A stretch of 64,000 bases of DNA from positions 10,672,001 through 10,736,000 of the forward strand of contig AP031358.1 in assembly GCA_037833965.1 (NCBI GenBank), written 5' to 3'. Each line of letters begins with the position of its first letter. Position 1 is the first letter of the stretch. Under the pieces are notes generated by a model. The model saw only the letters and a program-made list of their open reading frames with translations, searched no databases and was not told where the DNA came from. The stretch comes from Marchantia polymorpha subsp. ruderalis. Lineage: Eukaryota > Streptophyta > Marchantiopsida > Marchantiales > Marchantiaceae. The position numbers and the translations under genes were made by a program. Positions 12,222-43,997 of this stretch are shown here, in pieces.

Positions 12222-12230
12222 TAACACCCT

Positions 12231-13181
12231 GCTTGAAATTTTGCAGGCTGATGCACCTTGCCCTACTCCAGCGTTCCATCAAATTTCAGCTCCAGATCAC
12301 TCCGAACGTAGAAGATACAGCTCCCGTAAGAATCTCTTGCCCTCAAATCTTGAAACTCAAAGCTCGAAACTCAAAATTGGACTCACTGTGACTCAGAAAC
12401 TCCGTTCGATCTGAAAATTGACAGGCTCGAGCGCTCTACCCAACGTCACAACGCCACAAAATTTCAGCCTCCGTTCACACTCGAGCCCAAAGTTACGGCC
12501 CCTGCAAGATTCGGCCCTCCCCTCTCTAAAAGCTGAGACCTCCAAATCACGTCAACTTCTCGCTCCGAATGGCGTTTTGCTTGAAATTTTGCAGGCTGAT
12601 GCGCCCTGCCCTACTCTAGCGTTCCACCAAATTTCAGCTCCCGATCACTCCGAACGTAGAAGATACAGCTCCCGTAAGAATCTATTGCCCTCAAATCTTG
12701 AAACTCAAAGCTCGAAACTCAAAATTGGACGCACTGTGACTTTGAAACTCCGTTCGACCTGAAAATTGACAGGCTTAAGCGCTCTACCCAACGTCACAAC
12801 GCCACAAAATTTCAGCCCCCGTATACACTCGAGCCCAAAGTTACGGCCCCTGCAAGATTCAGCTCTCCCCTCTCAAAAAGCTGAGACCTCCAAGTCACGT
12901 CAACTTCTCGCTCCGAATGGCGTTCTGCTTGAAATTTTGCAGGCTTATGCGCCCTGCCCTACTCCAGCGTTCCACCAAATTTCAGCTCCAGATCACTCCG
13001 AACGTAGAAGATACAGCTCCCGTAAGAATCTCTTGCCCTCAAATCTTGAAACTCAAAGCTCGAAACTCAAAATTGGACGCACTGTGACTCTGAAACTCCG
13101 TTCGACCTGAAAATTGACAGGCTTGAGCGCTCTACCCAACGTCACAACGCCACAAAATTTCAGCCCCCGTTCACACTCGAG
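12231..13181 (-). repeat. C-type 348-bp LINE 5' monomers, about 2.7 units
   Basis: Tandem copies of a 348-bp unit begin exactly where C1 ORF2 ends at 12230. Landmarks such as TTGAAATTTTGCAGG and CACAAAATTTCAGC recur every 348 bp. The orientation relative to the element is the same as in C2 (22161-28420). I therefore read them as the promoter-side monomers of C1 rather than independent satellite. The right end is cut by the A fragment at 13182. Confidence 0.88.
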
Positions 13182-15716
13182 AACGGGAAACACTAAGCTC
13201 TTGAATAAGAATTTACTAAGACTCCAAGACACTAGATGAGCTCTACATCTATTTAGCAATGAATATAGAGCTTTGAAACCAGCTTCTACCCTCTTTTGCA
13301 CACAAAGTGCCCAACTATAATCAGATGAGAAATCAATGCCCAAATATTTGTAACTTTTCACTTGTTCCAACTCTAATCCTTTGTAACAGAAAGAGAGCTT
13401 CGATCTAGTGCCCACAAGAATGACTTTGGACTTCTCCAAATTGACTTCCATCTGATTTTGAGTACAAAAGCTAGCCAAAGTGTCGAGGTGTTTCTGTAAA
13501 CTAGTGGCATCACGTGCTAGTAATATGACATCATCTGCATACAAAAGAGCTTTGATGACAAAGCCTCCAAGTTTAACACCTTCGCTATCACAATCCTCCA
13601 ACCACCTCTCTATATCATCTATGAAAACTCCAAAGAGAGTGGGAGAGAGAGGACAACCTTGAATGACTTCAATGGTGCTGATAATCTCTTCGGTTTGAGA
13701 AGGGTTGATCTTGGCCCGAACTGAGTGGTATAATGCAGCCACCGCTGCCAAGAGATCTGATGGTACTCCAATGGTTTGCAATCTTTGCCATAAAAGCTCA
13801 AGAGGTACTGTGTCAAAAGCTTTCTTGAAATCAATGAAGGCACAAAACAAAGCTTTTCCATTGCCCTTGGATTTCTCCCATAGAACACGTAAAACCAAGA
13901 TATGGTCTATAGTGTTGAATGTAGGACGAAAACCAGCTTGGAATCGCGCTCTCTTCTGACAAGATTCAGCCCATGTGCTCAACTTTGACTCCACCAATTT
14001 GCCAAATAACTTGGCAAAAATACTACCCACCATGATAGTGCGATAGTTTGTCACCAAGGCCTTGCTCCCAAATTTGTGAATAGGAACAATCTTCCGTAGA
14101 GACCAAGATGAAGGAAAGCCATGAATAGCAGCATCCTCTAACACTTTCGTGAGTATAGGCCCAATAGCATCTCCTCCCCACTTGAGAAGTTCAATGGAAA
14201 GCCCATCCAAATCCTCACATTTACCATTTGCCAATTGTCTGAGTTGAGTCATCACTTCAACTTCTGAAAATAAGCCTGCATTTCCTTCACAATGTGGCAT
14301 AGATGCAACATTGGGAAAGAAATAAAGCTTTTCAGCAAAAGAAATCAAAGACTTGGGATCAAGAGTAGGTTTAGAAGATCGTACTGCCAACCGCCTCCAA
14401 AAGGATTTGGGATTCTCCAAGAGCTCCTTTGTCAAGCACTCTTGCTTCAGCCTCAAAAATGCTCGTTTCTTGGACTTCACCAAGTCTTTGTAAAGTCTTG
14501 TCATAATCAACCGATTGTGAAGATCCAAGGATTTATCAAGTGATCTCGCCCTTGCTTGCTTGCAATCAAAGTCAAACCATCCATTGCAAGGAAGACCTCT
14601 AGCTCTCCTGGTCTTATGTCTCAAAAAGAACTTAGAAGCAGAGTTTTGGAGCAACTCTGTTAGTTGCAAACTAGATGTATGTGGATCAAGGCTCCAAGTA
14701 GTACAAGTCAAGAGGTCTTGGAAATGTTCACTATAAAGTTGCTTCTTACTAGCATCTAAACAAAACTTGGGGGAAGTAGAAACATAGTGACATGTAGGGA
14801 GAGGGATTGACGTTGGCAACAAAAGAGTAAATAAAAGAGGTGTATGATCTGATTCTGGTTGAGGCTCTAGAATATCAAACGCTGAGATAAATGAACTATT
14901 AGTGATAGAGGACAAAAGATAATCTATAGTGCTAACACCAGTAGAGGAAAAACATGTATTGGAGTGAGAGTTGGGAAAAAAAGAAACACCATTCAGAACT
15001 TTCAGATTACAAGTGGCTCCAAAAGTCAAGAAATGCTCAGTCAAATGGTAAATGGTAAATGGTAAATAGATCAAGCCCGTGGGACCCAAAGGGTCAAAAG
15101 GCTAAAAAACACAATACAAACAATCCAACTCCAAACTAGGAGAGAACCAAAAGAACCCCCTAGCTAGTGCCCAAAGCACTAGAACGGTAACTAATAATAT
15201 CTCTAATGTAACAACCTAAATCATAAGGCTCGAGTTGAAGCAGAGAAAAGAAATTCTTGACATCAACTTTATGCGCCCCTCGAATCTCTACATACCTAGA
15301 ACAAGTAAGAAATACATGCTCTTCATCCTCAACTTTTCTTCCATCACATAGCCTACAAATACGTTCACTCCTATCAATGTTCAACCAACGCCCTTCTTCA
15401 ATCCCAAGACTATGAGATCCAGTTCTATGTCTAGCAATAATATGACGTAAAGAAGTAGATATCCCTGCAAGTAAGTATCCTTGCTCACAATAAACAAGCA
15501 TAGGATTCACATGAAGTTGATAAAACTGCATCTTGGTGCCTCGTGTGCTCCACATAATGCTGAGAAATTCCTCCCTAATACGCTCGCGTAGGGCAATAGG
15601 TTGCAAATTCCAATCGAGTTCCGTCACATTCCACCTCAAAGACCAAGTCACCACATCTGCAAATAGGGAGAGGGATTGACGTTGACAACAAAAGAGTAAA
15701 TAAATCATTTGTACAA
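13182..15716 (-). mobile_element. Subfamily A LINE fragment with a small A insertion inside
   Basis: Minus-strand A ORF2 from the endonuclease part (LTEHFLTFGATCNLK, STIDYLLSS, SDHTPL) through YADD to the thumb (VSWSLSKFLFKSLVFPV). It ends at 13182 against C monomers. A second A piece is inserted at 15047-15701, with AAAT at both junctions (15043-15046 and 15702-15705). The host resumes for 12 bases (to about 15716) before the GC-rich element. The ORF is open from 15044 to about 13182 with scattered substitutions, for example CPLE for CPRE-type codons near motif A. Confidence 0.88.
15047..15701 (-). mobile_element. Short A insertion: 3' end plus a 36-bp internal piece
   Basis: On the minus strand this has three ATTTACC units, the 3' UTR, and the ORF2 C-terminus from about WFAD to the stop at 15160. 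It is joined at about 15665 to a 36-bp piece of the endonuclease region (FTLLLSTSIPL codons). Everything between is missing. AAAT flanks both sides. This looks like one insertion event with a template jump or an internal deletion. The C-terminal finger is intact. Confidence 0.85.
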
Positions 15717-15717
15717 G

Positions 15718-18700
15718 TGTCTCTACTCACGCGCTTCCAGCGTATAAGGAAGCTACGCTTCCGGCGCAGACCCCTCAGGAGGAGGTTTTTGCTAAAGACG
15801 TCAGGAGAAGGGCCCGGACCTCTGAAGGCGTCCGACCATGAGTGCGCCTTCGGCGATGCGCCGCTGGCGCGGAAAGGGAAACCCTTCATAACGATCGGAA
15901 TACACGGTAGATCCAGTTGGTTGAAGTCGCATTAGAAAGAGCTCGGGACGCTCGTTCTAACGAGCCCAAGAGCGTCGGAGATGGATCAGGGACGGAGAAG
16001 TTATGAGCGTCGGAAAACTTGTAGCCGGACATGCACCGTTCGCGCTAGGGTTCACAGCCGGAAAGGATTCCCGTACGCCCTCGGCGATGCGCCTTCGGCG
16101 GAATCACGCGCTCATAGGAGGAAACCAACTTAGAGTCGGAAGCGCCTTTGGCGGCTGCTCATGGAAGGAAAGCGCCGGTCGGATGTACGCCTCCGACGTG
16201 GCGCTGACGGCCGGATGCGCTGGCATGATTTGCGCTGGCGGATATGCGCCGTCAGCAATGGACGAGGCATAAAGGACAAAATAAGCGGTACGACTGCGCG
16301 CCGGCGTAATTCGCTCCGACTAGATGTGCGCCTCCAGCAAGGCGCCGACGGATAAGGAACGCACCAACGGCGACACGCCTCCGGTGACGGACGGGTTAGG
16401 GAAAGACAACATAGCCGACGTATACCCTGCGGCGGACTCGAGTCCGGAAGGTGGTGGCGGCGGGAGAATTCAACATTCACGCATGCGAATGCGCGCAGTG
16501 TGGAGACGTGAATTCGCGCATGCAAAGGGCGAACCGTTAGGCCGTATAGCCGGCTGGACATGTCCGGAGATGGTGCGCGAGTATCTGCAGGAGAGACACA
16601 AGCCCTCTCGCGGATTCCGTCCACATCCAGAAAGATGGGACATTTGTAACTGGGCGCAGGTGTTGGGCAGGTGTGCCGGCGAGGAAGGGGATCTCCTCTT
16701 CGAGGCCGATAGCGTGAAGGTGTCCCAGGAGGAAGAAATCTCCTACAATGAGCTCTTCAAAGTTGCCAGGCATCCCAAGAACGGTTTCCGGACACGGGAT
16801 TACAAAGATCGATTGCGGAGAAATGTCGCGACTGCATTGCTGCAGATATTGCAGCCGACCAAGACCGCTTACATGCATGGTTGGCAGGTAGAATTTGTGG
16901 AGCTAGTGTTGTCAGGAGCTCCAGTGCATTGGGCACGGCTCCTGTGGAAGGTGACGCGCCAACATGCGCAAGAAGAGAGAGGAGGAACTCTCAATCATCT
17001 TTCGCCTTACTTGATTGTGTTTTATCGGGCGATGGGATGTTTGACAAATTCTGAGAAAACACGGTTTCCGCTGCTGACCCGGAGCTATCCAGGTAGATAC
17101 TCGAGGGAGGCCGAAGTAGACACGGATCCGGACGAGGAACCTGCCAGTCCGCCTCCGGCTCCAGCAAGAGCAGCAGAAGAACGTCGAAGTGAGCGCATTC
17201 CGCGAAAGCGGAAGTGGGATGAGAGACCTGAGGACAGGCAGCCGGAAGTGCCAGCTGCGCCGACTCGTGGTCGGCCCACCCCCGAGCCTCACAATTCTAG
17301 GGAAGACGACAAATACCTCTGCACAGAAGGCACCAATGCCTTCGGGAGGAGATGGACGGACTGACAGTCGGCCGACTACGAGTCGGGCGACTGAAGGTCG
17401 ACAAGCGGAAGGAAGGCCAACTGAACGGCGCGTTGAACCGAACAGCAGGCCGGAAGCAGAAGAGAGTTTGGCTGACGAGCCAACAACCCTCAGAAGGTCG
17501 TCTTCGGCGGAAGGCACTCCTGGGAAAACGCCACCAGCAAGCAGGCCAAGTGGAGTCAAGACGCGCAGGGTGTATCCGACTCCCAGTCGGACAACTGCTG
17601 GTCGGCCGACTGCGAGTCGGTCAACAGAGAGTCGGCCGGATTCGCCGACTGCGAAACGGACAGGGCCGACGACCAGTGTGCGGACGCCTTCGGCGGACGC
17701 ACCTTCAGCGAAGACACCTTCCGCGCAGATTGCGCCGGAAGGGCAGGCAGCAGAAGCGGGCGGTGCAAAAGTGACAAGAGTCACTGCGGCGTCGACCCCT
17801 TCGGAGACCGAAGATCGAGCCGGAACAGGGGCTCGAGCAGTGGGATCTCCCACTGCCGTGGATATTTTAGCAGGCAGTGGAGCAGCAGTCGCAGCGGAAG
17901 CTGCTGCGCGCCACAGTTCCAGGGAGTCGCCAAGGGATTCGGTGGCGACTGAAATCCTCGAGACTCAGGATGAGACGAGCTCGGAAGAGCAGGAAGCGGA
18001 TTCGGTGCAGAAAACGCCAACAGGGGTATTGTGCGAGCAGATAGTCCCACTCCTACGATACCTGGATCGCAAGACATCCAAGTACGCGGGTACTGGAAAA
18101 CCGCAGTCTTATGTGGAGACTATCAGGCGAAGGACGAGGAGCAAGGTGGCCATTTGGGCCTCTAGGTGCCAAGTATATGTGGATAGGAACACCGCCCTCC
18201 GACAACACCTGGCGGTCACACAGAAGCTATACCAAGCCTTGCAGCAGCAAAGGGAGGATGCGGCGACGAAAAGTCAGGCGGATGCCGAGCTAATGCGGGC
18301 AAAGATCGAGTCGGATTGTAGGAAGAGCGGAGACAAAACCACGTCCTAGCAGCCGAGCTTGCGCGGCAGACGCGCGCCTTAGAAGAAAGTCAAAGAGCCC
18401 GCAAGGAGGATGAGGAGTTGTTGCGCAACTTGCAATCCGAGTGCTCGGATTTGAGGGCACAGCGTGCGGAAGCGGAAATGCAGCTAGCAGAGGTGGAAGG
18501 CAGCTGCAGGGCGCGAGAAGAGTTGGCGACGCGGGTGACTCATTGTCTAAAAGGATACGCCCATTGGGAGGTGGCAGCTCAAGAGAGGATCACACTCAGG
18601 GAGTTCGAGCTTCGGGCGGCGGCATTGACGGAGGGTGACAGTCGGAGTCGGCGGCGAGTGGCGAGGAAATTAGAAACCTTCTTGTCGGGTGCGCGCGACA

Positions 18701-19848
18701 CTATGGCGCACTTAGAGTCGGAAGTCACTGCAGCGCTCCGACGCCTGGGGTTGCGCAGCCGGTCGGAAGACTGGCAAGGTAGAGGCAGCGAGCGGAGCAG
18801 TCCGGCGCGCAGGAGGCGCAGCACCGGATCCGCCGAGTGCAGTAGAATAGTTTGGTTTCGCGCAGATGTTGCGAGTAGTAGATAGGATAGCGTAGTGCTA
18901 GTTAGGACCTTTGAGGGTATAAAGTAGATCAAGGCGTTTTGCCTTGGGACTCTTCCAGTTTCGGAAGTGCAGATCAGGAACTCACTTTCTTGGCGTGTTT
19001 GTGCATTTGGTCCTGGCACCACGTAGAGAAGCTGCAGCATAGCGAAGTTACCGTATGTTGTAGTTGAAGGCCTTCGGCCGAATGTTCAGAGCTAGTACCC
19101 GGTTAGAGACTTGAGTAGTGCGGATCTGCACCTGCGGGTGACTTCTGATGCTCAGAGCCGGCTGCGAGTTAGATACTTGAACAGTTCCCCCTTACTCCTT
19201 CGAGTGACATATCCTGATTGTACTCCTACGGGAAGTTTCCCCTGAATGCCAATGTGAAGTTTTATTACTTCGTGTAAACCTTGGTTTGTAATTCAGGTAG
19301 TGTGTGTGTTACTGGATCGTGTCTCAGTTAAGTTCTCAGTCGGGTCTGCACTCCCTGCGTTTGGTGTGATAGTCGAGGGTGACGTCCACGGCGTATGAAG
19401 AGGCTTCGTTCCGAAGTGGGAAGTCCAGTCCGGGTACCCTACGCTAGTTCCTGGCGGGAGGGCAGTAAAAGCCGGAGTGGGAGGCACTACCTGCAGAACC
19501 TCTGAGTGAACTTTTGAGACACTTTCCTCCTGAAATCCGAAGCGGAGGTCCTACCCGACCTCCGAGTTGTGCTTTTGCCAGTTTTAGGTGTGTGTGTGTG
19601 TGTGTGTGTGTGTTGAGTGACCACGCTGTACCGTGCATCCTCCGAGCATCCTCCGAGTCGAGATCCTCCTCCGAGTCGAGCCTCCGAGTCGAGCACTGCA
19701 GTATTTCTGGGAGTGACAGTCGCCTAGAATTCACACTCTACAAAAGTCTGTTAAACGTGACACTTTTACTCTGTGTGTTGCCTGTGTCCCTGTGGGTTCG
19801 ATCTTTTTACCACCATACTGCAGTTTTAGCCTTTGGTGGGTTATTACA
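15718..19848 (+). mobile_element. GC-rich fossil mobile element, possibly LTR-related, no polymerase seen
   Basis: A 4.1-kb block of clearly higher GC content than its surroundings, sitting between two A LINE fragments. Its ends read TGTCTC... and ...TTACA, the TG...CA pattern of LTR-type elements, but I see no long terminal repeats and no reverse transcriptase or integrase. The parts on the plus strand are a gag-like or unknown protein region (about 16.3-17.3 kb, with VEFVELVLSGAPVHWARLLW and HLSPYLIVFYRAMGC), a low-complexity Ser/Thr/Pro/Arg region (about 17.2-18.3 kb), and an alpha-helical Glu/Arg/Ala-rich coiled-coil-like region (about 18.4-18.9 kb). About 1 kb of non-coding sequence with a GT microsatellite follows. 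It looks broken, with about two breaks. It could be a non-autonomous element or the remaining part of a larger one. Confidence 0.5.
19589..19612. repeat. GT dinucleotide microsatellite
   Basis: About eleven uninterrupted TG/GT units inside the non-coding 3' part of the GC-rich element. Confidence 0.9.
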
Positions 19849-19956: not shown

Positions 19957-20445
19957 AATGGTAAATGGTAAATGGTAATAGATCAAGCCCGGGGGACCCA
20001 AAGGGTCAAAAGGCTGAAAAACACAATACAAGCGACAGCCACAAACAAGGGAAAAGACCCCAAAGGCCAAACCCTAGCTAGTGCCAAGAGCACTAGAACG
20101 ATAACTAATAATGTCCCTAATATAACAACCTAAATCAAAAGGAACTAACTGTAACAAAGAATAAAAATTCTCTACATCTATATTATGGGTCACTCTAATC
20201 TCTGCATATCTAGTACAAGTAAGAAATACATGGTAAATGGTAAATGGTAATAGATCAAGCCCGGGGGACCCAAAGGGTCAAAAGGTTGAAAAACACAATA
20301 CAAGCGACAGCCACAAACAAGGGAAAAGACCCCAAAGGCCAAACCCTAGCTAGTGCCAAGAGCACTAGAACGATAACTAATAATGTCCCTAATATAACAA
20401 CCTAAATCAAAAGGAACTAACTGTAACAAAGAATGAAAATTCTCA

Positions 20446-20963
20446 AGAATGTACAAATGTCTCCCTCCTTTGAAGAACTTGAAGATAGTATGTGGTGTAG
20501 AAAGTCTTCTGATATTTGTACAAATCCTTTGACAGAACACTTTCTAACCTTTGGAGCCACATGTAATTTGAAAGTTCTCAACGGTATCTCTCTCTTTCCC
20601 AACTCCCTTTCCAATACGTGCTTTTCTCCTACAGGTGTTAGCACCATTGATTATCTTCTATCTTCAGCCACTCATAGCTCTTTTATTTCAAAATTTGATA
20701 TTCTAGAACCTCAGCCAGAGTCAGATCATGCACCTCTCTTATTTACTCTCTTGTTATCAAAAACAATCTCTCTCTCCCCATGCCATTCTGTTTTAGCTTC
20801 TCCCAAGTTTCGTTTAGATCCTAGTAAGAAAGAGTTGTACATGTTACATTTTCAAAACCTTTTGACTCACACTTCATGGAGCCTTGATCCACATACAGCG
20901 AGTGAGCAATTAATAGAGTTGCTCAAAGACACTGCTTCTAAGTTCTTTTTGCGGCACAAGGAT
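20446..20963 (+). pseudogene. Inverted ORF2 endonuclease fragment inside C2
   Basis: This piece reads in plus orientation although C2 is on minus. It encodes SPSFEELEDSMWCRKSSD through STIDYLLSS and SDHAPLLFTL to FFLRHKD. It is the stretch of ORF2 that would come shortly after the codons at 20966 (KGEVF), turned around. The inversion together with the loss of the following ORF2 sequence resembles twin priming or a template switch during insertion. Confidence 0.85.
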
Positions 20964-20965
20964 CA

Positions 20966-21396
20966 AAAACTTCACCTTTGCTCTGATAATTGAGAACATC
21001 TCCTATAAGTCGATGGAATGGTTGACTCCGATTGCAAGTGCGTGTGGAGTAGATAGGCATGGACAATGGTGCAAAGTAACAAACAGCCAAATAACTATAA
21101 GATCCTCCAACCAAACCAAGACGAAGCCAATGATATTGACCTCCAATATCTTGACCTTCTAAATGTATCAAAGGTAGAAATTGAGATCTGATGAAAGTAG
21201 CAATACCGCCATAGCCTCTTCCCGCTCGTTGACTTCTCTGATTCCAAGTGGATCCCACCAAAGTAAACCCTGGTATCTCTCCAATAGTGTTGCTCTCATG
21301 TTCCCACGTCTCCACAATGTTGATGATGTCCGCCATCTTCCAAATCGGATTAGCACTCACATACTTGGTTGTAGAAAGACCTCTAATATTCCACAT
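20966..21396 (-). pseudogene. LINE ORF2 N-terminal fragment (copy C2)
   Basis: ORF2 starts at ATG 21396 (RGLSTTKYVSANP follows) and runs to GDVLNYQSKGEVF, where the inverted piece begins. It covers the first part of the endonuclease (WNIRGL, ETWEHE, YHWLRL, VCYFAPLS) but lacks GDFNAR and later motifs, so it cannot be active. Confidence 0.88.
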
Positions 21397-21420
21397 TAAC
21401 ACCCTCAAGCTCTTGGATTG

Positions 21421-22158
21421 CTATGTGGATGATTGTCTCTTCCTTTGAGTGACAATTGCTTGTCCATCACGAAGATAAGCAAAAAATCCAGCATCTTGAG
21501 CTTCTTTGACTTTTGCAAGCTCCTTTCTCCTTGCCTCTACTTGTAGAGGTGTGAGATCGGGATCTAACCAAATCCTACGTCCTTTGAGTACAGCTTTGTT
21601 GGCTAAAGCTGTATCACGTTGAGTTTGGTCATTGAACTTAACTATGATGGCTCGAGGTTGAGTTCCTATGGTTCCAATGCGAAAAGCTTGAGCCACATCC
21701 GCATTAGGAACATCAAGTGTTTCAGCTAAAAACTTGGTGACAACACTCTTCACCTCTTCCTTCTCAGATTCAGGTAGACCAGAAATTCTCACATTCTTTC
21801 TACGAGCAAATTGATTAGTCTTTTCAATCTCTTGCTCTTGACAGAAAGAGATATGAGCAGACTTAGTGGCTTCTGCATAAGATTTCATCTTCACCTCTAG
21901 ACTTTCAACCACTTCATGCAATCTAGGAGTAGCAGCAGTGGAAGCTTGAGAACCAACTTTCTCCTGGATATCGTCTACGTGTTCTGAAATATCAACCATA
22001 ATCTTCTCGAAACTCTTTTGAGAGAGCTTCAACTCTCTAATTTCATATTGAGCTGCAATTAAAGTAGAGCTCTGTACCTTGAACTCTGCACGTAGTACTT
22101 TCAACTCTTCCAAAACCGTTTGCAACAGATTGAGTATGAAATTGTCTTGAGACACCAT
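21421..22158 (-). CDS. LINE ORF1 protein, complete (copy C2)
   Basis: 245 codons from ATG 22158, the same length as A-subfamily ORF1. I prefer this start because the frame upstream runs into monomer sequence and because A3 and A4 start at the equivalent place. Residues about 1-85 have the heptad-like pattern of a coiled coil (NLLQTVLEELKVLRAEFK, then KSFEKIMVDISEHVDDIQEK). The RRM-like part begins at KNVRISGLPESEKEEV and contains RAIIVKF. The C-terminal part has the basic RRIWLDPDLTPLQVEARRKEL. The likely role is a trimeric RNA-binding chaperone of the element RNA. Homology to L1 ORF1p is inferred from motif order, not from a search. It is transcribed, if at all, from the adjoining monomers 3 bp upstream. 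Confidence 0.88.
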   Translation of the reverse strand: MVSQDNFILNLLQTVLEELKVLRAEFKVQSSTLIAAQYEIRELKLSQKSFEKIMVDISEHVDDIQEKVGSQASTAATPRLHEVVESLEVKMKSYAEATKSAHISFCQEQEIEKTNQFARRKNVRISGLPESEKEEVKSVVTKFLAETLDVPNADVAQAFRIGTIGTQPRAIIVKFNDQTQRDTALANKAVLKGRRIWLDPDLTPLQVEARRKELAKVKEAQDAGFFAYLRDGQAIVTQRKRQSST

Positions 22159-22160
22159 CG

Positions 22161-25100
22161 AAAAGCTCAGAACTCCAAGGCACGTCAACTTCTCGCTCCG
22201 AATGGCGTTCTGCTTGAAATTTTGCAGGCTGATGCGCCCTGCCCTACTCCAGCGTTCCACCAAATTTTAGCTCCAGATCATTCCGAACGTAGAGGATACA
22301 GCTCCCGTAAGAATCTCTTGCCCTCAAATCTTGAAACTCAAAGCTCGAAACTCAAAATTGGACGCACTGTGACTCAAAAACTCCGTTCGATCTGAAAATT
22401 GACAGGCTTGAGCGCTCTACCCAACGTCACAACGCCACAAAATTTCAGCCCCCGTTCACACTCGAGCCCAAAGTAAAGGCCCCTGCAAGATTCGGCCCCC
22501 CCCTCTCAAAAAGCTCAGACCTCCAAGACACGTCAACTTCTCGCTCCGAATGGCGTTCTGCTTGAAATTTTGCAGGCTGATGCGCCCTGCCCTACTCCAG
22601 TGTTCCACCAAATTTCAGCTCCAGATCTCTCCGAACGTAGAGGATACAGCTCCCGTAAGAATCTCTTGCCCTCAAATCTTGAAACTCAAAGCTCGAAACT
22701 CAAAATTGGACGCACTGTGACTCAGAAACTCCGTTTGATCTGAAAATTGACACGCTTGAGCGCTATACCCAACGTCACAACGCCACAAAATTTCAGCCCC
22801 CGTTCACACTCGCGCCCAAAGCTACGGCCCCTGCAAGCTTCGGCCCTCCCCTCTCAAAAAGCTCAGACCTCCAAGACACGTCAACTTCTCGCTCCGAATG
22901 GCGTTCTGCTTGAAATTTTGCAGGCTAGTGCGCCCTGCCCTACTCCAGCGTTCCACCAAATTTCAGCTCCAGATCACTCCGAACGTAGAAGATACAGCTC
23001 CCGTAAGAATCTCTTGCCCTCAAATCTTGAAACTCAAAGCTCGAAACTCAAAATTGGACGCACTGTGACTCAGAAACTCCGTTCGATCTGAAAATTGACA
23101 GGCTTGAGCGCTCTACCCAACGTCACAACGCCACAAAATTTCAGCCCCCGTTCACACTCGAGCCCAAAGTAACGGCCCCTGCAAGATTCGGCCCTCCCCT
23201 CTCAAAAAGCTCAGACCTCCAAGACACATCAACTTCTCGCTCCGAATGGCGTTCTGCTTGAAATTTTGCAGGCTGATGCGCCCTGCCCTACTCCAGCGTG
23301 CCACCAAATTTCAGCTCCATATCACTCCGAACGTAGAGGATACAGCTCCCGTAAGAATCTCTTGCCCTCAAATCTTGAAACTCAAAGCTCGAAACTCAAA
23401 ATTGGACGCACTGTGACTCAGAAACTCCGTTCGATCTGAAAATCAACAGGCTTGAGCGCTCTACCCAACGTCACAACGCCACAAAATTTCAGCCCCCGTT
23501 CACACTCGCGCCCAAAGCTACGGCCCCTGCAAGCTTCGGCCCTCCCCTCTCAAAAAGCTCAGACCTCCAAGACACGTCAACTTCTCGCTCCGAATGGCGT
23601 TTTGCTTGAAATTTTGCAGGCTGATGCGCCCTGCCCTACTCCAGCGTTCTACCAAATTTCAGCTCCATATCACTCCGAACGTAGAGGATACATCTCCCGT
23701 AAGAATCTCTTGCCCTCAAATCTTGAAACTCAAAGCTCGAAACTCAAAATTGGACGCACTGTGACTCTGAAACTCCGTTCGATCTGAAAATTGACAGGCT
23801 TGAGCGCTCTACCCAACGTCACAACGCCACAAAATTCAGCCCCCGTTCACACTCGAGCCCAAAGTAACGGCCCCTGCAAGATTCGGCCCTCCCCTCTCAA
23901 AAAGCTCAGACCTCCAAGACACATCAACTTCTCGCTCCGAATGGCGTTCTGCTTGAAATTTTGCAGGCTGATGCGCCCTGCCCTACTCCAGCGTGCCACC
24001 AAATTTCAGCTCCATATCACTCCGAACGTAGAGGATACAGCTCCCGTAAGAATCTCTTGCCCTCAAATCTTGAAACTCAAAGCTCGAAACTCAAAATTGG
24101 ACGCACTGTGACTCAGAAACTCCGTTCAATCTGAAAATTGACAGGCTTGAGCGCTCTACCCAACGTCACAACGCCACAAAATTTCAGCCCCCGTTCACAC
24201 TCAAGCCCAAAGTTACGGCCCCTACAAGATTCGGCCCTCCCCTCTCAAAAAGCTAAGACCTCCAAGACACGTCAACTTCTCGCTCCGAATGGCGTTCTGC
24301 TTGAAATTTTGCAGGTTGATGCGCCCTGCCCTACTTCAGCGTTCCACCAAATTTCAGCTCCAGATCACTCCGAACGTAGAGGATACAGCTCCCGTAAGAA
24401 TCTCTTGCCCTCAAATCTTGAAACTCAAAGCTCGAAACTCAAAATTGGACGCACTGTGACTCAGAAACTCCGTTCGATCTGAAAATTGACAGGCTTGAGC
24501 GCTATACCCAACGTCACAACGCCACAAAATTTCAGCCCCCGTTCACACTCGAGCCCAAAGCTACGGCCCCTGCAAGCTTCGGCCCTCCCCTCTCAAAAAG
24601 CTCAGACCTCCAAGACACGTCAACTTCTCGCTCCGAATGGCGTTCTGCTTGAAATTTTGCAGGCTAGTGCGCCCTGCCCTACTCCAGCGTTCCACCAAAT
24701 TTTCAGCTCCAGATCACTCCGAACGTAGAGGATACAGCTGATGCGCCCTGCCCTACTCCAGCGTTCCACCAAATTTCAGCTCCAGATCACTCCGAACGTA
24801 GAAGATACATCTCCCGTAAGAATCTCTTGCCCTCAAATCTTGAAACTCAAAGCTCGAAACTCAAAATTGGACGCACTGTGACTCAGAAACTCCGTTCGAT
24901 CTGAAAATTGACAGGCTTGAGCGCTCTACCCAACATCACAACGCCACAAAATTTCAGCCCCCGTTCACACTCAAGCCCCAAAGTTACGGCCCCTGCAAGA
25001 TTTGGCCCTCCCCTCTCAAAAAGCTCAGACCTCCAAGACACGTCAACTTCTCGCTCCGAATGGCGTTCTGCTTGAAATTTTGCAGGCTGGTGCGCCCTGC

Positions 25101-28100
25101 CCTACTTCAGCGTTCCACCAAAGTTCAGCTCCAAATCACTCCGAACGTAGAAGATACAGCTCCCGTAAGAATCTCTTGCTCTCAAATCTTGAAACTCAAA
25201 GCTCGAAACTCAAAATTGGACGCACTGTGATTCAGAAACTCCGTTCGATCTGAAAATTGACAGGCTTGAGCGCTCTACCCAACGTCACAACGCCACAAAA
25301 TTTCAGCCCCCGATCACACTCGAGCCCAAAGTTACGGCCCCTGCAAGATTCGGCCCTCACCTCTCAAAAAGCTCAGACCTCCAAGACACATCAACTTCTC
25401 GCTCCGAATGGCGTTCTGCTTGAAATTTTGCAGGCTGATGCGCCCTGCCCTACTCTAGCGTTCCACCAAATTTCAGCTCCAGATCACTCCGATTGTAGAA
25501 GATACAGCTCCCGTAAGAATCTCTTGCCCTCAAATCTTGAAACTCAAAGCTCGAAACTCAAAATTGGACGCACTGTGACTCTGAAACTCCGTTCGATCTG
25601 AAAATTGACAGGCTTGAGCGCTCTACCCAATGTCACAACGCCACAAAATTTCAGCCCCCGTTCACACTCGAGCCCAAAGTTACGGCCCCTGCAAGATTCG
25701 GCCCACCCCTCTCAAAAAGCTCAGACCTCCAAGACACGTCAACTTCTCGCTCCGAATGGCGTTCTGCTTGAAATTTTGCAGGCTGATGCGCCCTGCCCTA
25801 CTCCAGCGTTCCACCAAATTTCAGCTCCATATCACTCCGAACGTAGAGGATACAGCTCCCGTAAGAATCTCTTGCCCTCAAATCTTGAAACTCAAAGCTC
25901 GAAACTCAAAATTGGACGCACTGTGACTCTGAAACTCCGTTCGATCTGAAAATTGACAGGCTTGAGCGCTCTACCCAACGTCACAACGCCACAAAATTTC
26001 AGCCCCCGTGCACACTCGAGCCCAAAGTTACGGCCCCTGCAAGATTCGGCCCTCCCCTCTCAAAAAGCTCAGACCTCCAAGACACATCAACTTCTCGCTC
26101 CGAATGGCGTTCTGCTTGAAATTTTGCAGGCTGATGCGCCCTGCCCTACTCTAGCGTGCCACCAAATTTCAGCTCCATATCACTCCGAACGTAGAGGATA
26201 CAGCTCCCGTAAGAATCTCTTGCCCTCAAATCTTGAAACTCAAAGCTCGAAACTCAAAATTGGACGCACTGTGACTCAGAAACTCCGTTCAATCTGAAAA
26301 TTGACAGGCTTGAGCGCTCTACCCAACGTCACAACGCCACAAAATTTCAGCCCCCGTTCACACTCAAGCCCAAAGTTACGGCCCCTACAAGATTCGGCCC
26401 TCCCCTCTCAAAAAGCTAAGACCTCCAAGACACGTCAACTTCTCGCTCCGAATGGCGTTCTGCTTGAAATTTTGCAGGTTGATGCGCCCTGCCCTACTTC
26501 AGCGTTCCACCAAATTTCAGCTCCAGATCACTCCGAACGTAGAGGATACAGCTCCCGTAAGAATCTCTTGCCCTCAAATCTTGAAACTCAAAGCTCGAAA
26601 CTCAAAATTGGACGCACTGTGACTCAGAAACTCCGTTCGATCTGAAAATTGACAGGCTTGAGCGCTATACCCAACGTCACAACGCCACAAAATTTCAGCC
26701 CCCGTTCACACTCGAGCCCAAAGCTACGGCCCCTGCAAGCTTCGGCCCTCCCCTCTCAAAAAGCTCAGACCTCCAAGACACGTCAACTTCTCGCTCCGAA
26801 TGGCGTTCTGCTTGAAATTTTGCAGGCTAGTGCGCCCTGCCCTACTCCAGCGTTCCACCAAATTTTCAGCTCCAGATCACTCCGAACGTAGAGGATACAG
26901 CTGATGCGCCCTGCCCTACTCCAGCGTTCCACCAAATTTTAGCTCCAGATCACTCCGAACGTAGAAGATACATCTCCCGTAAGAATCTCTTGCCCTCAAA
27001 TCTTGAAACTCAAAGCTCGAAACTCAAAATTGGACGCACTGTGATTCAGAAACTCCGTTCGATCTGAAAATTGACAGGCTTGAGCGCTCTACCCAACGTC
27101 ACAACGCCACAAAATTTCAGCCCCCGTTCACAGTCAAGCCCAAAGTTACGGCCCCTGCAAGATTTGGCCCTCCCCTCTCAAAAAGCTCAGACCTCCAAGA
27201 CACGTCAACTTCTCGCTCCGAATGGCGTTCTGCTTGAAATTTTGCAGGCTGGTGCGCCCTGCCCTACTTCAGCGTTCCACCAAATTTCAGCTCCAAATCA
27301 CTCCGAACGTAGAAGATACAGCTCCCGTAAAAATCTCTTGCTCTCAAATCTTGAAACTCAAAGCTCGAAACTCAAAATTGGACGCACTGTGATTCAGAAA
27401 CTCCGTTCGATCTGAAAATTGACAGGCTTGAGCGCTCTACCCAACGTCACAACGCCACAAAATTTCAGCCCCCGATCACACTCGAGCCCAAAGTTACGGC
27501 CCCTGCAAGATTCGGCCCTCACCTCTCAAAAAGCTCTGACCTCCAAGACACGTCAACTTCTCGCTCCGAATGGCGTTCTGCTTGAAATTTTGCAGGCTGA
27601 TGCGCCCTGCCCTACTCCAGCGTTTCACCAAATTTCAGCTCCAGATCACTCCGATTGTAGAAGATACAGCTCCCGTAAGAATCTCTTGCCCTCAAATCTT
27701 GAAACTCAAAGCTCGAAACTCAAAATTGGACGCACTGTGACTCTGAAACTCCGTTCGATCTGAAAATTGACAGGCTTGAGCGCTCTACCCAATGTCACAA
27801 CGCCACAAAATTTCAGCCCCCGTTCACACTCGAGCCCAAAGTTACGGCCCCTGCAAGATTCGGCCCACCCCTCTCAAAAAGCTCAGACCTCCAAGACACG
27901 TCAACTTCTCGCTCCGAATGGCGTTCTGCTTGAAATTTTGCAGGCTGATGCGCCCTGCCCTACTCCAGCGTTCCACCAAATTTCAGCTCCATATCACTCC
28001 GAACGTAGAAGATACAGCTCCCGTAAGAATCTCTTGCCCTCAAATCTTGAAACTCAAAGCTCAAAACTCAAAATTGGACGCACTGTGACTCAGAAACTCC

Positions 28101-28420
28101 GTTCGATCTGAAAATTGACAGGCTTGAGCGCTCTACCCAACGTCACAACGCCACAAAATTTCAGCCCCCGTGCACACTCGAGCCCAAAGTTACGGCCCCT
28201 GCAAGATTCGGCCCTCCCCTCTCAAAAAGCTCAGACCTCCAAGACACGTCAACTTCTCGCTCCGAATGGCGTTCTGCTTGAAATTTTGCAGGCTGATGCG
28301 CCCTGCCCTACTCTAGCGTTCCACTAAATTTCAGCTCCAGATCACTCCGAACGTAGAGGATACAGCTCCCGTAAGAATCTCTTGCCCTCAAATCTTGAAA
28401 CTCAAAGCTCGAAACTCAAA
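22161..28420 (-). repeat. 348-bp tandem monomers forming the 5' region of C2, about 18 units
   Basis: The 348-bp unit repeats from 3 bp upstream of the ORF1 ATG to the 5' end of the insertion. Recurring landmarks are GAAATTTTGCAGGC, CCAAATTTCAGCTCC, AAAATTGACAGGC and CACAAAATTTCAGCCCC. The two half-units each contain a GAAA(A)TTT/TTGCAGG-like then AAATTTCAGC core, so 348 bp looks like an old dimer of about 174 bp. Units differ by few substitutions. Two units contain a roughly 75-bp internal duplication (24664-24740 area and 26827-26903 area). By position these monomers are the probable promoter, as are the 5' monomers of rodent L1 elements. Confidence 0.92.
24138..28420 (-). repeat. Higher-order repeat, about 2163-bp period, two copies
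   Basis: The block 24138-26300 recurs from 26301 to the end of the array. Variant units repeat in the same order: the unit at 24138 equals that at 26301, the 75-bp duplicated unit at 24486 recurs at 26649, and units at 25257, 25605 and 25953 recur at 27419, 27767 and 28115. The period is six 348-bp monomers plus 75 bp. This shows a recent block duplication within the LINE 5' region, probably by unequal exchange. Confidence 0.88.
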
Positions 28421-28975
28421 CATGCTCTTCATCCTCAACTTCTCTTCCATCACATAGCCTACAAATACGTTGACTCCTATCAATATTAAGCCAACGTCCT
28501 TCCTCAATTCCTAGCCTATGAGATCCAGTTCTATGCCTAGCAATAAGATGACGTAAGGACGTAGAGATTCCTGCAAGTAGGTAATCCTGTTCACAATAAA
28601 CAAGCATAGGATTCACATGAAGTTGATAAAACTGCATCTTGGTGCCGCGCTTGCTCCAAATAATGTTCAGAAACTCCTCCTTTAGACGTTCACGTAGTGC
28701 TATAGGTTGTAGGTCCCAATCGCGTTCCGTCACATTCCACCTCAAAGACCAAGTTATCACATCCGCTAACCATCCTTTGGCACGTGTGGCACTCAAAGCC
28801 TGAGGAGGAAGGCGAGAAGCATCAAGAGATCTCACCCTTGTGATGTAAGTGATGGTCAAGTATAGAGCTTCAGCCTCTAGAGGTAAACAACATGTTTCCG
28901 CAAGAAGAATAGCATATGAGGTTTGGTTTCTCACACCCAATTCTTCTTGTAGAAATATCTTCTACACCTTCTCAA

Positions 28976-29242
28976 AAGAGGTTCTAGACCACAAACTATC
29001 GTAAATTTCTTCAAACATAGAAGAAGCCAAGGGATCACTAAATTGAGTAAATTGAGCACAACGTATACGAGCATTGAAATCTCCAGCAAGAAAGACATCC
29101 CCTTTACTTTGGAATCTAAGAACATCTTCAATAAGCTGATGGAATGGTTCACTTTGGTTGCAAAAGCGTGTTGAGTAGATACCCATGGACAATGGTGCAA
29201 AATAACAAATTGCCAAATAGCAATAAGATCCTCCAACCACCC
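28976..29242 (-). mobile_element. Small inverted B LINE fragment (endonuclease region)
   Basis: Minus-strand B ORF2 codons from GVVGGSYCYLAICYFAP through LAGDFNAR to DSLWSRTSF. It lies between the C host and the start of a plus-strand B element that contains the same region, so it may be the inverted 5' part of that B insertion. Confidence 0.82.
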
Positions 29243-32580: not shown

Positions 32581-32693
32581 GGTAAATGGTAAATGGTAAA
32601 TAGATCAAGCCCGTGGGACCCAAAGGGTCAAAAGGCTAAAAAACACAATACAAACAATCCAACTCCAAACTAGGAGAGAACCAAAAGAACCCC

Positions 32694-35600
32694 CTAGCTA
32701 GTGCCCAAAGCACTAGAACGGTAACTAATAATATCTCTAATGTAACAACCTAAATCATAAGGCTCGAGTTGAAGCAGAGAAAAGAAATTCTCGACATCAA
32801 CTTTATGCGCCACTAGAATCTCTACATACCTAGAACAAGTAAGAAATACATGCTCTTCATCCTCAACTTTTCTTCCATCACATAGCCTACAAATACGTTC
32901 ACTCCTATCAATGTTCAACCAACGCCCTTCTTCAATCCCAAGACTATGAGATCCAGTTCTATGTCTCGCAATAATATGACGTAAAGAAGTAGATATCTCT
33001 GCAAGTAAATACCCTTGCTCACAATAAACAAGCATAGGATTCACATGAAGTACATAAAACTGCATCTTGGTGCCTAGTGTGCTCCACATAATGCTGAGAA
33101 ATTCCTCCTTAATACGCTCGCGTAGGGCAATAGGTTGCAAATTCCAATCGAGTTCCGTCACATTCCACCTCAAAGACCAAGTCACCACATCTGCAAACCA
33201 ACCCTTGGGACGTGTGGCACGCAAAGCTTCAAGAGGAAGTCGAGAAGCATCAAGAGATCTCACTCTTTTGACGTAAGTGATAGTCAAAAAGAGAGCTTCA
33301 GCCTCAAGAGGTAGACAACCTGTTTCCGCAAGAAGAATTGCATAAGAAGTTTGGGTCCTCACACCCAATTCTTCTTGTAAGAAGATCTTTTGCACCCTCT
33401 CCAAACGCTGCCAACCTGTCTTCTTACAACCAGGACCCCACACTTGTGTTCCATATAAGATAACGGGAAACACTAAGCTCCTGAATAAGAATTTCCTAAG
33501 ACTCCAAGACACTAGATGAGCTCCTCTACATCTATTTAGCAATGAATATAGAGCTTTGAAACCAGCTTCTACCCTCTTTTGCACACAAAGTGCCCAACTA
33601 TAATCAGATGAGAAATCAATGCCCAAATATTTGTAACTTTTCACTTGTTCCAACTCTAATCCTTTGTAACAGAAAGAGAGCTTGGATCTAGTGCCCACAA
33701 GAATGACTTTGGACTTCTCCAAATTGACTTCCATCTGATTTTGAGTACAAAAGCTAGCCAAAGTGTCGAGGTGTTTCTGTAAACTAGTGGCATCACGTGC
33801 TAGTAATATGACATCATCTGCATACAAAAGAGCTTTGATGACAAAGCCTCCAAGTTTAACACCTTCACTATCACAATCCTCCAACCACCTTTCTATATCA
33901 TCTATGAAAACTCCAAAGAGAGTGGGAGAGAGAGGACAACCTTGAATGACTCCAATGGTGCTGATAATCTCTTCGGTTTGAGAAGTGTTGATCTTGGCCC
34001 GAACTGAGTGGTATAATGCAGCCACCGCTGCCAAGAGATCTGATGGTACTCCAATGGTTTGCAATCTTTGCCATAAAAGCTCACGAGGTACTGTGTCAAA
34101 AGCTTTCTTGAAATCAATGAAGGCACAAAACAAAGCTTTTCCATTGCCTTTGGATTTCTCCCATAGAACACGTAAAACCAAGATATGGTCTATAGTGTTG
34201 AATGTAGGACGAAAACCAGCTTGGAACCGCGCTCTCTTCTGACAAGATTCAGCCCATGTGCTCAACTTTGACTCCACCAATTTGCCAAATAACTTGGCAA
34301 AAATACTACCCACCATGATAGTGCGATAGTTTGTCACCAAGGCCTTGCTCCCAGATTTGTGAATAGGAACAATCTTCCGTAGAGACCAAGATGAAGGAAA
34401 GCCATGAATAGCAGCATCCTCTAACACTTTCGTGAGTATAGGTCCAATAGCATCTCCTCCCCACTTGAGAAGTTCAATGGAAAGCCCATCCAAATCCTCA
34501 CATTTACCATTTGCCAATTGTCTGAGTTGAGTCATCACTTCAACTTCTGAAAATAAGCCTGGATTTCCTTCACAATGTGGCATAGATGCAACATTGGGAA
34601 AGAAATAAAGCTTTTCAGCAAAAGAAATCAAAGACTTGGCATCAAGAGTAGGTTTAGAAGATCGTACTGCCAACCGCCTCCAAAAGGATTTGGGATTCTC
34701 CAAGAGCTCCTTTGTCAAGCACTCTTGCTTCTGCCTCAAAAATGCTCGTTTCTTGGACTTCACCAAGTCTTTGTAAAGTCTTGTCATAATCAATCGATTG
34801 TGAAGATCCAAGGATTTATCAAGTGATCTCGCCCTCGCTTGCTTGCAATCAAAGTCAAACCATCCATTGCAAGGAAGACCTCTAGCTCTCCTGGTCTTAT
34901 GTCTCAAAAAGAACTTAGAAGCAGAGTTTTGGAGCAACTCAGTTAGTTGCAAACTAGATGTATGTGGATCAAGGCTCCAAGTAGTACAAGTCAAGAGGTC
35001 TTGGAAATGTTCACTATAAAGTTGCTTCTTACTAGCATCTAAACAAAACTTGGGGGAAGTAGAAACATAGTGACATGTAGGGAGAGGGATTGACGTTGAC
35101 AACAAAAGAGTAAATAAAAGAGGTGTATGATCTGATTCTGGTTGAGGCTCTAGAATATCAAACGCTGAGATAAATGAACTATTAGTGGCAGAGGACAAAA
35201 GATAATCTATAGTGCTAACACCAGTAGAGGAAAAACATGTATTGGAGTGAGAGTTGGGAAAGAAAGAAACACCATTGAGAACTTTGAGATTACAAGTGGC
35301 TCCAAAAGTCAAGAAATGCTCAGTCAAATCATTTGTACAGGGATCACAAGAGACTCTAGACCACAAACTATCTCTACTTTCTTCAAAAGAGTGAGAAGAC
35401 AAGGAACTATCAAATTGTGTAAATTGAGCGGAACGTATGCGGGCATTGAAGTCTCCAACAAGAAAAACTTCACCTTTGTCTTGATATTTGAGAACATCTC
35501 CTATGAGCCGATGGAATGGTTGACTTCGATTGCAAGTGCTTGTGGAGTAGATCTGCATGGATAATGGTGCAAAGTAGCAAACTGCCAAATAACTGTAAGA

Positions 35601-35894
35601 TCCTCCAATTGATCCAAGACGAAGCCAATGATATTGTTTCCCACTATCTTGGCTTTCCAAATGTATCATAGGAAGAAGTTCAGATCTGATGAAAGTAGCA
35701 ATGCCTCCAAAGCCTCTTCCTGCTCGTCGATTTCTATGGTTCCAAGTAGATCCCACCAGAGTAAACCCTTGTATCTCTCCAATAACATTGCTTTCATGCT
35801 CCCAAGTCTCAACAATGTTGAGGATGTCCGCCATCTTCCAAATCGGATGTGCACTCACATACTTAGTTGTAGATAGGCCTCTTATGTTCCACAT
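32694..35894 (-). CDS. LINE ORF2 endonuclease-reverse transcriptase, intact (copy A3)
   Basis: 1066 codons from ATG 35894; the frame is open 12 bp further upstream but has no ATG there. Domain order: endonuclease at about residues 1-245 (WNIRGL, ETWEHE, YHWLRL, VGDFNAR, STIDYLLSS, SDHTPL); a linker with NGWFDFDCKQARAR; reverse transcriptase at about 455-745 (KSGS...NYR, QAGFRP, FIDFKKAFDT, QGCPLSPTLF, YADD, LEKSKVI, KYLGIDF); thumb region (SWSLRKFLFRSLVFPV); and a C-terminal finger C-X2-C-X9-H-X4-C near residue 1000. All visible catalytic residues are present. No RNase H domain is seen. The clade is not settled: the APE endonuclease and ORF1 type suggest the L1-like group, the 3' microsatellite tail does not resemble plant L1. 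Confidence 0.93.
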   Translation of the reverse strand: MWNIRGLSTTKYVSAHPIWKMADILNIVETWEHESNVIGEIQGFTLVGSTWNHRNRRAGRGFGGIATFIRSELLPMIHLESQDSGKQYHWLRLGSIGGSYSYLAVCYFAPLSMQIYSTSTCNRSQPFHRLIGDVLKYQDKGEVFLVGDFNARIRSAQFTQFDSSLSSHSFEESRDSLWSRVSCDPCTNDLTEHFLTFGATCNLKVLNGVSFFPNSHSNTCFSSTGVSTIDYLLSSATNSSFISAFDILEPQPESDHTPLLFTLLLSTSIPLPTCHYVSTSPKFCLDASKKQLYSEHFQDLLTCTTWSLDPHTSSLQLTELLQNSASKFFLRHKTRRARGLPCNGWFDFDCKQARARSLDKSLDLHNRLIMTRLYKDLVKSKKRAFLRQKQECLTKELLENPKSFWRRLAVRSSKPTLDAKSLISFAEKLYFFPNVASMPHCEGNPGLFSEVEVMTQLRQLANGKCEDLDGLSIELLKWGGDAIGPILTKVLEDAAIHGFPSSWSLRKIVPIHKSGSKALVTNYRTIMVGSIFAKLFGKLVESKLSTWAESCQKRARFQAGFRPTFNTIDHILVLRVLWEKSKGNGKALFCAFIDFKKAFDTVPRELLWQRLQTIGVPSDLLAAVAALYHSVRAKINTSQTEEIISTIGVIQGCPLSPTLFGVFIDDIERWLEDCDSEGVKLGGFVIKALLYADDVILLARDATSLQKHLDTLASFCTQNQMEVNLEKSKVILVGTRSKLSFCYKGLELEQVKSYKYLGIDFSSDYSWALCVQKRVEAGFKALYSLLNRCRGAHLVSWSLRKFLFRSLVFPVILYGTQVWGPGCKKTGWQRLERVQKIFLQEELGVRTQTSYAILLAETGCLPLEAEALFLTITYVKRVRSLDASRLPLEALRATRPKGWFADVVTWSLRWNVTELDWNLQPIALRERIKEEFLSIMWSTLGTKMQFYVLHVNPMLVYCEQGYLLAEISTSLRHIIARHRTGSHSLGIEEGRWLNIDRSERICRLCDGRKVEDEEHVFLTCSRYVEILVAHKVDVENFFSLLQLEPYDLGCYIRDIISYRSSALGTS

Positions 35895-35918
35895 CAACAC
35901 CCTCAATCTCTTGGATTG

Positions 35919-36656
35919 CTAGGTTGATGATTGTCTCCTTCTCTTGGTGATAATAGCTTGACTATCACGTAGATAAGCTACAAAACCTGCATCTTGAGCT
36001 TCTTTAACTTTTGCAAGCTCCTTCCTCCTTGCTTCAACTTGAAGAGGTGTAAGATCTGGATCTAACCAAATCCTCCGTCCCTTGAGAATGGCCTTGTTAG
36101 CTAAAGCCATATCACGTTGAGCTTGATCTACAAACTTGACAATAATGGCACGAGGTTGTGTGCCTTTGTTGCCAATACGATAAGCATGAGCCAAATCCGG
36201 ATTAGGAACATCAAGTGTTTCAGTCAAAAACTTGGTGACCACACTCTTCACCTCTTCCTTCTCAGATTCAGGTAGACCCGAAATCCTTACATTCTTCATA
36301 CGAGCAAATTGATTAGCCTTTTCAATCTCTTGTTCTTGACAGAAAGAGATATGAGCAGACTTGGTAGCTTCAGCATAGGACTTCATTTTCACCTCTAGAG
36401 TTTCAACCACTTCATGCAAAGCAGGAGTAGTAACAGTAGAAGCTTGAGAACCAACCTTGTCTTGAATGTCCTCAACAGATCCAGAGATTTGGAGCATGAT
36501 CTTCTCAAAACTTTTGTGAGAAGTCTTCAACTCCCTGATTTCATTCTTTGCAGCAGCCAAGGCAACATTTTGTGTCTTGAATTCTTGGCGTAGCACTTTC
36601 AATTCCTCCAAAACCGATTGCACAAGATTGAGAAGTTTGTTTTCAGAATCCATCAT
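35919..36656 (-). CDS. LINE ORF1 protein, intact (copy A3)
   Basis: 245 codons starting MMDSENKLLNLVQSVLEELK. The first 85 residues have coiled-coil periodicity (LLNLVQSVLEELKVLRQEF, KSFEKIMLQISGSVEDIQDK). An RRM-like part follows from KNVRISGLPESEKEEV to RAIIVKFVDQ, and then a basic C-terminal part (ILKGRRIWLDPDLTPLQVEA). This is the architecture of L1 ORF1p, an RNA-binding trimer. No zinc knuckle is present. Two ATGs stand at the start (36656 and 36653); A4 has the same pair. Confidence 0.9.
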   Translation of the reverse strand: MMDSENKLLNLVQSVLEELKVLRQEFKTQNVALAAAKNEIRELKTSHKSFEKIMLQISGSVEDIQDKVGSQASTVTTPALHEVVETLEVKMKSYAEATKSAHISFCQEQEIEKANQFARMKNVRISGLPESEKEEVKSVVTKFLTETLDVPNPDLAHAYRIGNKGTQPRAIIVKFVDQAQRDMALANKAILKGRRIWLDPDLTPLQVEARRKELAKVKEAQDAGFVAYLRDSQAIITKRRRQSST

Positions 36657-36690
36657 GAACCCAACTTTGCAAGATGTTACACAAGCTCAA

Positions 36691-38037: not shown

Positions 38038-38140
38038 GAGAGAGGACAACCTTGAATCACTCCAATGGTACTCAAAACCTCTTCAGTTTGAGAAGTGTTG
38101 ATCTTGGCTCGAACAGATTGGTAAAGCGTGGCCACAGCTG
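38038..38140 (-). mobile_element. C LINE fragment right of A3
   Basis: Minus-strand C ORF2 codons AAVATLYQSVRAKINTSQTEEVL to QGCPLS. It repeats, inverted, a stretch that also occurs in the adjoining plus-strand C element at about 38252-38357. Confidence 0.85.
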
Positions 38141-42329: not shown

Positions 42330-42359
42330 GAACCCAACTTTGCAAGATGTTACACAAGC

Positions 42360-42590: not shown

Positions 42591-42603
42591 CCGATAATCT
42601 CAA

Positions 42604-42682: not shown

Positions 42683-42683
42683 A

Positions 42684-43996: not shown

Positions 43997-43997
43997 G

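Follow-up and report, generated by a model that had tools for sequence, protein, structure and literature searches.

The 64,000-nt stretch of Marchantia polymorpha subsp. ruderalis DNA analyzed here (contig AP031358.1, positions 10,672,001 to 10,736,000; hereafter the window) is filled in its left 45 kb, except for about 15.7–19.8 kb, mostly by copies of a long interspersed nuclear element (LINE) nested within other LINE copies. Among 40 listed motif matches, 14 were recognized by eye as 3′ ends bearing an (ATTTACC)n tail, seven on each strand. According to nucleotide identity, most of the 28 compared segments sort into three subfamilies, A, B, and G, and some others (e.g., 43421–43609 and 44950–45490) were left unassigned; identity within a subfamily is mostly 97–99.5%, and the bodies of A and B are about 84% identical. 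This report concerns the tandem repeats, or monomers, found ahead of the first open reading frame (ORF1) of this LINE, and in particular those of the insertion named D, which interrupts the host element C. The features of this site are the following:

19960–20232, minus strand: host element C, 3′ part
20229–20232, no strand: target duplication CATG, left copy (ACATG if 20228 is counted)
20233–28420, minus strand: insertion D (subfamily B), with tandem monomers, ORF1, rearranged ORF2, and 3′ tail as one block inside host C, recognized by the split host ORF2, a duplication of 4–5 bp, and the empty site in five other copies
20233–20444, minus strand: 3′ end of D with (ATTTACC)n tail
20460–20960, plus strand: inverted internal segment of ORF2 of D (reference positions 2805–3305 on the opposite strand; 98.4% identical to the copy E5)
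20965–21408, minus strand: 5′ part of ORF2 of D (endonuclease region)
21421–22158, minus strand: ORF1 of D (245 aa), its ATG 0–2 nt past the last partial monomer
22161–28420, minus strand: 348-bp array of D, about 18 units (6.26 kb by Tandem Repeats Finder), oriented as ORF1
28421–28424, no strand: target duplication CATG, right copy (ACATG if 28420 is counted)
28421–28977, minus strand: continuation of ORF2 of host C (subfamily B)

An earlier note on this DNA had proposed that host C is split at one point and that everything between its halves moved as one unit, and both proposals have been borne out. The ORF2 of host C is cut at a single point, its left half ending ...AAGAAATACATG at 20232 and its right half restarting CATGCTCTTCATCC at 28421. 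The uncut version of this site is present in five other copies (plus strand, 15303 and 32837; minus strand, 39442, 9761, and 5743), and the two halves overlap by five positions when aligned to an intact copy (reference positions 5349–5353). Whether the duplication is CATG or ACATG is ambiguous because the tail of D itself ends in CAT. Read in the sense direction (minus strand), the block flanked by this 4–5 bp duplication runs from the array (28420–22161) through ORF1 (22158–21421) and the start of ORF2 (21408–20965) to an inverted piece of ORF2 and the 3′ end with its tail. Therefore, it is well supported that the array belongs to the mobile unit, that it travelled with the LINE body in D, and that it is not an adjacent satellite. 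The content ascribed to D by the earlier note (array, ORF1, part of ORF2, and tail) is correct, except that the inverted ORF2 piece at 20460–20960 had been overlooked. This inversion, with ORF2 sequence lost at both sides, resembles the rearrangements made during LINE reverse transcription, and twin priming or template switching may have produced it. The roughly 6.2 kb of 348-bp monomers described before ORF1 were recovered by Tandem Repeats Finder over 22161–28420. An anchor sequence of the unit occurs 18 times, with spacings of 347–350 bp in 15 of 17 cases and of 421 bp in the other two, and the array contains an internal duplication of about 2.16 kb (24257–26257 versus 26420–28420, 99.15% identical over 2 kb).

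The marks of target-primed insertion (3′ tail, 5′ truncation, and target duplication) are present in this LINE family. Seven junction pairs (D, E2, E4, E5, E7, E11, and E17) were compared. Three of them have 4-bp duplications (CATG in D, GATG in E2, and ATCT in E4), and E17 has no target duplication. In E11, the host pieces on the two sides lie about 450 positions apart, i.e., the target has suffered a deletion. For E5, only the 5′ side lies within the window, and in E7 the duplication is unreadable owing to a filler of 41 bp at the 5′ side (15664–15704), which has been copied from another part of ORF2.

Monomers precede the LINE body at three further places in the window, and they occur in a fourth as fragments:

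10013–12230, minus strand: ORF2 of E5 (subfamily B), into which E4 inserted later
12229–13181, minus strand: 348-bp array of E5 (2.7 units), fused to the start of ORF2, with ORF1 absent
32582–32693, minus strand: 3′ untranslated region (UTR) and (ATTTACC)n tail of E11
32694–35906, minus strand: open ORF2 of E11 (1070 aa, endonuclease and reverse transcriptase)
35919–36656, minus strand: ORF1 of E11 (245 aa)
36683–38037, minus strand: 165-bp array of E11 (about 8 units, subfamily A), detected by Tandem Repeats Finder at 36727–38037, with similarity extending to 36683
41592–42329, minus strand: ORF1 of E14 (245 aa)
42356–42591, minus strand: 165-bp array of E14 (about 1.4 units, subfamily A), with the array/leader junction as in E11
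43998–44276, plus strand: insertion of chimeric or heavily rearranged structure, in which monomer fragments (348-bp type, both orientations) are fused to a tailed LINE 3′ end

All four arrays of the window lie in sense orientation upstream of a LINE body, and all three copies that extend beyond the start of ORF1 (D, E11, and E14) carry monomers there, in the single orientation that the earlier note had asked about; the copy E1 is cut inside ORF1 by the window edge, and in the remaining copies the break or truncation lies in ORF2. The opposite outcome, monomers occurring mainly as free arrays, was not encountered: a monomer search of the window yielded no free array, and the sole further monomer sequence, at 43998–44193, is fused to a LINE 3′ end. 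The copy with all parts, i.e., 165-bp monomers, ORF1, and an open ORF2, is E11 (38037–32582, minus strand, subfamily A). At their separate sites, E11 and E14 share 48 nt through the ATG at the junction of array, leader, and ORF1, with two mismatches. The spacer from array to ORF1 measures 0–2 nt in subfamily B and about 26–29 nt in subfamily A.

Two observations concern the ends of these arrays. E5 is a natural derivative lacking ORF1, in which the array is joined to the start of ORF2 at 12229. Loss of ORF1 by splicing was considered and rejected, since the monomer runs on past the break with AACGCC and not with GT, so that a plain deletion is more likely. In addition, the sequences upstream of the arrays of E11 (38037–38145) and E14 (42592–42683) are both ORF2-like, from a near-identical place and in the same orientation (the second as judged by eye); these matching pieces look like chance or an insertion hot spot.

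The type of monomer tracks the subfamily in all four arrays, 165 bp in A and 348 bp in B. The 165-bp monomer had been described as a different one occupying the same place before ORF1; the place is indeed the same, but the two units share homology. The 348-bp unit consists of two diverged halves of 172 and 176 bp (Ba and Bb) and is thus a dimer; each half is homologous to the 165-bp unit (A), and pairwise identities are 55–64% (A–Bb, 105/165; A–Ba, 96/161; Ba–Bb, 93/170). Alignment scores of 102 for A–Bb, 63 for A–Ba, and 67 for Ba–Bb lie above the maxima obtained from 500 base shuffles each (22, 22, and 41, respectively), and the view that the A and B monomers are unrelated was rejected. The slightly closer match of the 165-bp unit to the second B half suggests an ancestor with at least two monomers in a row, a hint drawn from about 165 sites only. 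Between A and B, synonymous divergence (dS) is 0.54 for ORF2 and 0.76 for ORF1, with ratios of nonsynonymous to synonymous divergence (dN/dS) of 0.19 and 0.16, respectively; over four comparisons between subfamilies this ratio is 0.16–0.21, and both frames look to be under purifying selection. The raw difference between A and B monomers (36–45%) is of the same order as the dS of the frames, which fits joint inheritance of monomers and LINE body and not separate capture.

Within the subfamilies, the arrays comprise about 1.4, 2.7, 8, and 18 units. The mean difference between monomers is 3.6% in B (17 units from two arrays) and 4.8% in A (6 units from E11). Units of odd length (two of 421 bp in D and one of 259 bp in E11) do not enter these means, nor does any partial unit, which removes E14 altogether. 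The mean values exceed the differences between most bodies of one subfamily, and therefore variant monomers or mixed arrays probably predate the recent jumps. Internally duplicated units are also present, with duplications of 73–74 bp in B and of 94 bp in A.

As for the affiliation of the element, its ORF2 matches the Pfam families Exo_endo_phos (2.9e-9) and RVT_1 (6.5e-33), as expected of LINEs of the apurinic/apyrimidinic endonuclease (APE) type. Typical plant L1 elements have an ORF1 with DUF4283 and zf-CCHC domains, an ORF2 with zf-RVT, and a poly(A) tail. Here, no Pfam match to zf-CCHC, DUF4283, or zf-RVT was obtained with two ORF1 and one ORF2 sequences at E values up to 5, and all 14 3′ ends have the heptameric tail and no poly(A); therefore, this LINE is not a typical plant L1. 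Its ORF1 is weakly similar to human LINE-1 ORF1p (E value, 0.013), and an AlphaFold2 model built from three sequences shows long N-terminal helices at low confidence (mean predicted local distance difference test score, 59), from which an N-terminal coiled coil may be predicted. The reverse transcriptase is about equally near to R2 (82.1 bits) and L1 (81.5 bits), which are the only elements among the solved relatives listed. The RTE-X elements are LINEs that possess an ORF1, encode endonuclease and reverse transcriptase, and end in a tail of short repeats, and a guess would be that the present LINE belongs to this group. RTE-X elements are present in Chlorella centromeres (PMC11005252). Searches of viral and prokaryotic collections gave 1 and 16 pattern-matching stretches, respectively, none of which was confirmed by tblastn, as expected for a plant element.

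The best explanation for these data, to which we assign a probability of roughly 0.7, is that an APE-type LINE lineage has the tandem monomers as its 5′ region and that transcription starts inside the array, with promoter and start site located in the monomers. Transcription beginning there would leave some monomers ahead of ORF1 in the RNA and in the new DNA copy; the array would be shortened by 5′ truncation and by internal starts and presumably lengthened by unequal exchange or template slippage. Each subfamily would have homogenized its own version of the monomer (165 bp in A and the 348-bp dimer in B) from a common ancestor of about 170 bp. In favor of this reading, the array reaches to within 0–2 nt (B) or about 26–29 nt (A) of ORF1, and CpG-rich arrays stand before CpG-poor bodies, as in mouse L1. 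The CpG observed/expected ratio, computed for three arrays without the short one of E14, is 0.95 and 1.01 in the two B arrays and 0.71 in the A array, versus 0.36–0.46 in four LINE bodies. On the other hand, several results weigh against this explanation. Stretches of the window outside the LINEs have CpG ratios of 0.84 and 1.03, near the level of the arrays, so that the contrast may stem from CpG-poor bodies and not from enriched arrays. No promoter element was identified. The 5′ ends of the four arrays do not share a monomer phase beyond chance, and hence no start-site signature is seen with this sample of four: the nearest two ends lie about 6 bp apart as judged by eye, and the random probability that the closest pair falls within 5 or 8 bp is 0.31 or 0.47, respectively. 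Moreover, D is the sole array-bearing insertion with a clean duplication, since E11 lies over a deletion and E5 and E14 cannot be read on both sides together.

An unlikely alternative is that the monomers are a mobilized 5′ untranslated repeat without promoter function, acting, for instance, as a platform for the ORF1 protein or for translation, or being passive repeats transcribed from the most distal unit or from upstream of the array. It agrees with the differing phases of the array 5′ ends and with the fact that the evidence presented concerns cargo and position; besides, as the ATG of subfamily B stands 0–2 nt past the array, the repeats make up essentially its whole leader. However, a LINE must carry its promoter inside its transcript, and a promoter lying upstream would be lost at each jump; besides a leader of 0–2 nt (B) or about 26–29 nt (A), nothing but the array precedes ORF1. 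Much less credit can be given to the idea that the array is an independent satellite lying beside LINE insertions, or a satellite captured once by read-through and then amplified locally. The unit length is satellite-like, and the 2.16-kb, 99.15% duplication in D indicates that local duplication does make arrays grow. Nevertheless, the host C break lies outside the array and not at the boundary of array and LINE, which rules out a satellite merely adjoining the LINE in D; order and orientation are equal in four arrays of two subfamilies at different places; E11 and E14 have a common array/ORF1 junction; and homology between the monomer types is retained across subfamilies that differ by a synonymous divergence of 0.54–0.76. 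For this window, the independent satellite is largely refuted. Least probable of all is that the arrangement results from misassembly of a repeat-rich region or from a rearrangement between copies at the DNA level. Near-identical long repeats are easily mis-assembled, and the locus is densely nested and contains chimeric elements, deletions, and inversions; yet a 4–5 bp duplication with a tail at the opposite end is the usual mark of LINE insertion, is found at two other nested insertions as well, and the array/ORF1 junction is repeated in independent copies.

Several known systems resemble the LINE described here. The L1 of rat has a monomeric 5′ UTR. So has mouse LINE-1 (types A, TF, and GF), in which a variable number of CpG-rich tandem monomers of about 200 bp stands before ORF1, with types that differ by subfamily (PMC10620060). 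The mouse monomers have been described as CpG islands with additive promoter activity and with start sites within the monomers (PMC10620060); hence, promoter activity is demonstrated in mouse, whereas here it is inferred. The Marchantia element further differs from mouse LINE-1 in its plant host, in the (ATTTACC)n heptamer tail instead of poly(A), in the B unit being a diverged dimer, and in having little or no non-monomeric stretch ahead of ORF1 (about 26–29 nt in A and 0–2 nt in B). Another LINE with a modular 5′ end is TRE5-A of Dictyostelium, the A-modules of which can stand in tandem. The A-module acts as the plus-strand promoter of TRE5-A (PMC4559204), an element that targets tRNA genes (PMC5391098) and features an antisense promoter in the C-module at its 3′ end. 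In green algae, the Zepp and ZeppL elements also form LINE clusters with copies nested in copies, often 5′-truncated (PMC3446292; PMC8226300), and positions 1–45500 of the window, with their 14 3′ ends, form a self-nested cluster resembling those of Zepp. Zepp belongs to L1, and its clusters are thought to mark centromeres; in the parts of these two sources that were covered there is no mention of 5′ monomers for Zepp or ZeppL (PMC3446292; PMC8226300).

The centromeres of M. polymorpha itself are reported to consist of a 162-bp satellite, with a single LINE family at their flanks (PMC12885004, citing the primary paper), and the window is possibly the same kind of locus. The satellite is near the 165-bp monomer in length. 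It is conceivable, albeit improbable, that a tandem promoter made of monomers arose in a land-plant LINE lineage independently of rodent L1, that these monomers of about 165–174 bp share ancestry with a host centromeric satellite (e.g., the 162-bp Marchantia repeat), and that promoter arrays and satellite feed each other. The earlier note regarded the system as a candidate for an undescribed one. Full-text searches of open-licence papers, a body without most subscription papers, on LINE 5′ monomers or tandem repeats and on bryophyte LINEs in connection with centromeres revealed no plant LINE with tandem 5′ monomers. Rodents provide the best-known examples of monomeric LINE promoters. If the promoter is indeed in the array, this would be a second case, in an element that is not a typical plant L1, and tandem promoter arrays would be a recurrent way to keep a promoter despite 5′ loss; the growth, shrinkage, and replacement of arrays could then be tested comparatively. 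Such arrays also offer a route from LINEs to satellite-like DNA.

Other rearranged copies of the nest show further joints. The segment 28421–29236 is a chimera of B and G pieces, and in 43614–44276 a G ORF2 is linked to monomers of both orientations and to a 3′ end; such chimeras are as expected from template switching in reverse transcription. Two 3′ fragments of subfamily G (39984–40451 and 42684–43149) are 99.6% identical and have a near-equal 5′ truncation (reference positions 5153 and 5155) and different flanks; they are possibly a short non-autonomous derivative. Inside the LINE sequence, 15705–19848 is G+C-rich (57%) and holds three long ORFs without Pfam matches, and terminal repeats were not found in it. 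Scans of the window for Rfam families and tRNA genes gave no matches, and no Pfam family was obtained for ten ORFs, of which nine lie in the right part of the window. Finally, the window contains at 48387–49097 a gene for a transcription factor of the ZF-HD homeodomain type (ZF-HD_dimer, 1.1e-31), a family that is plant-specific.

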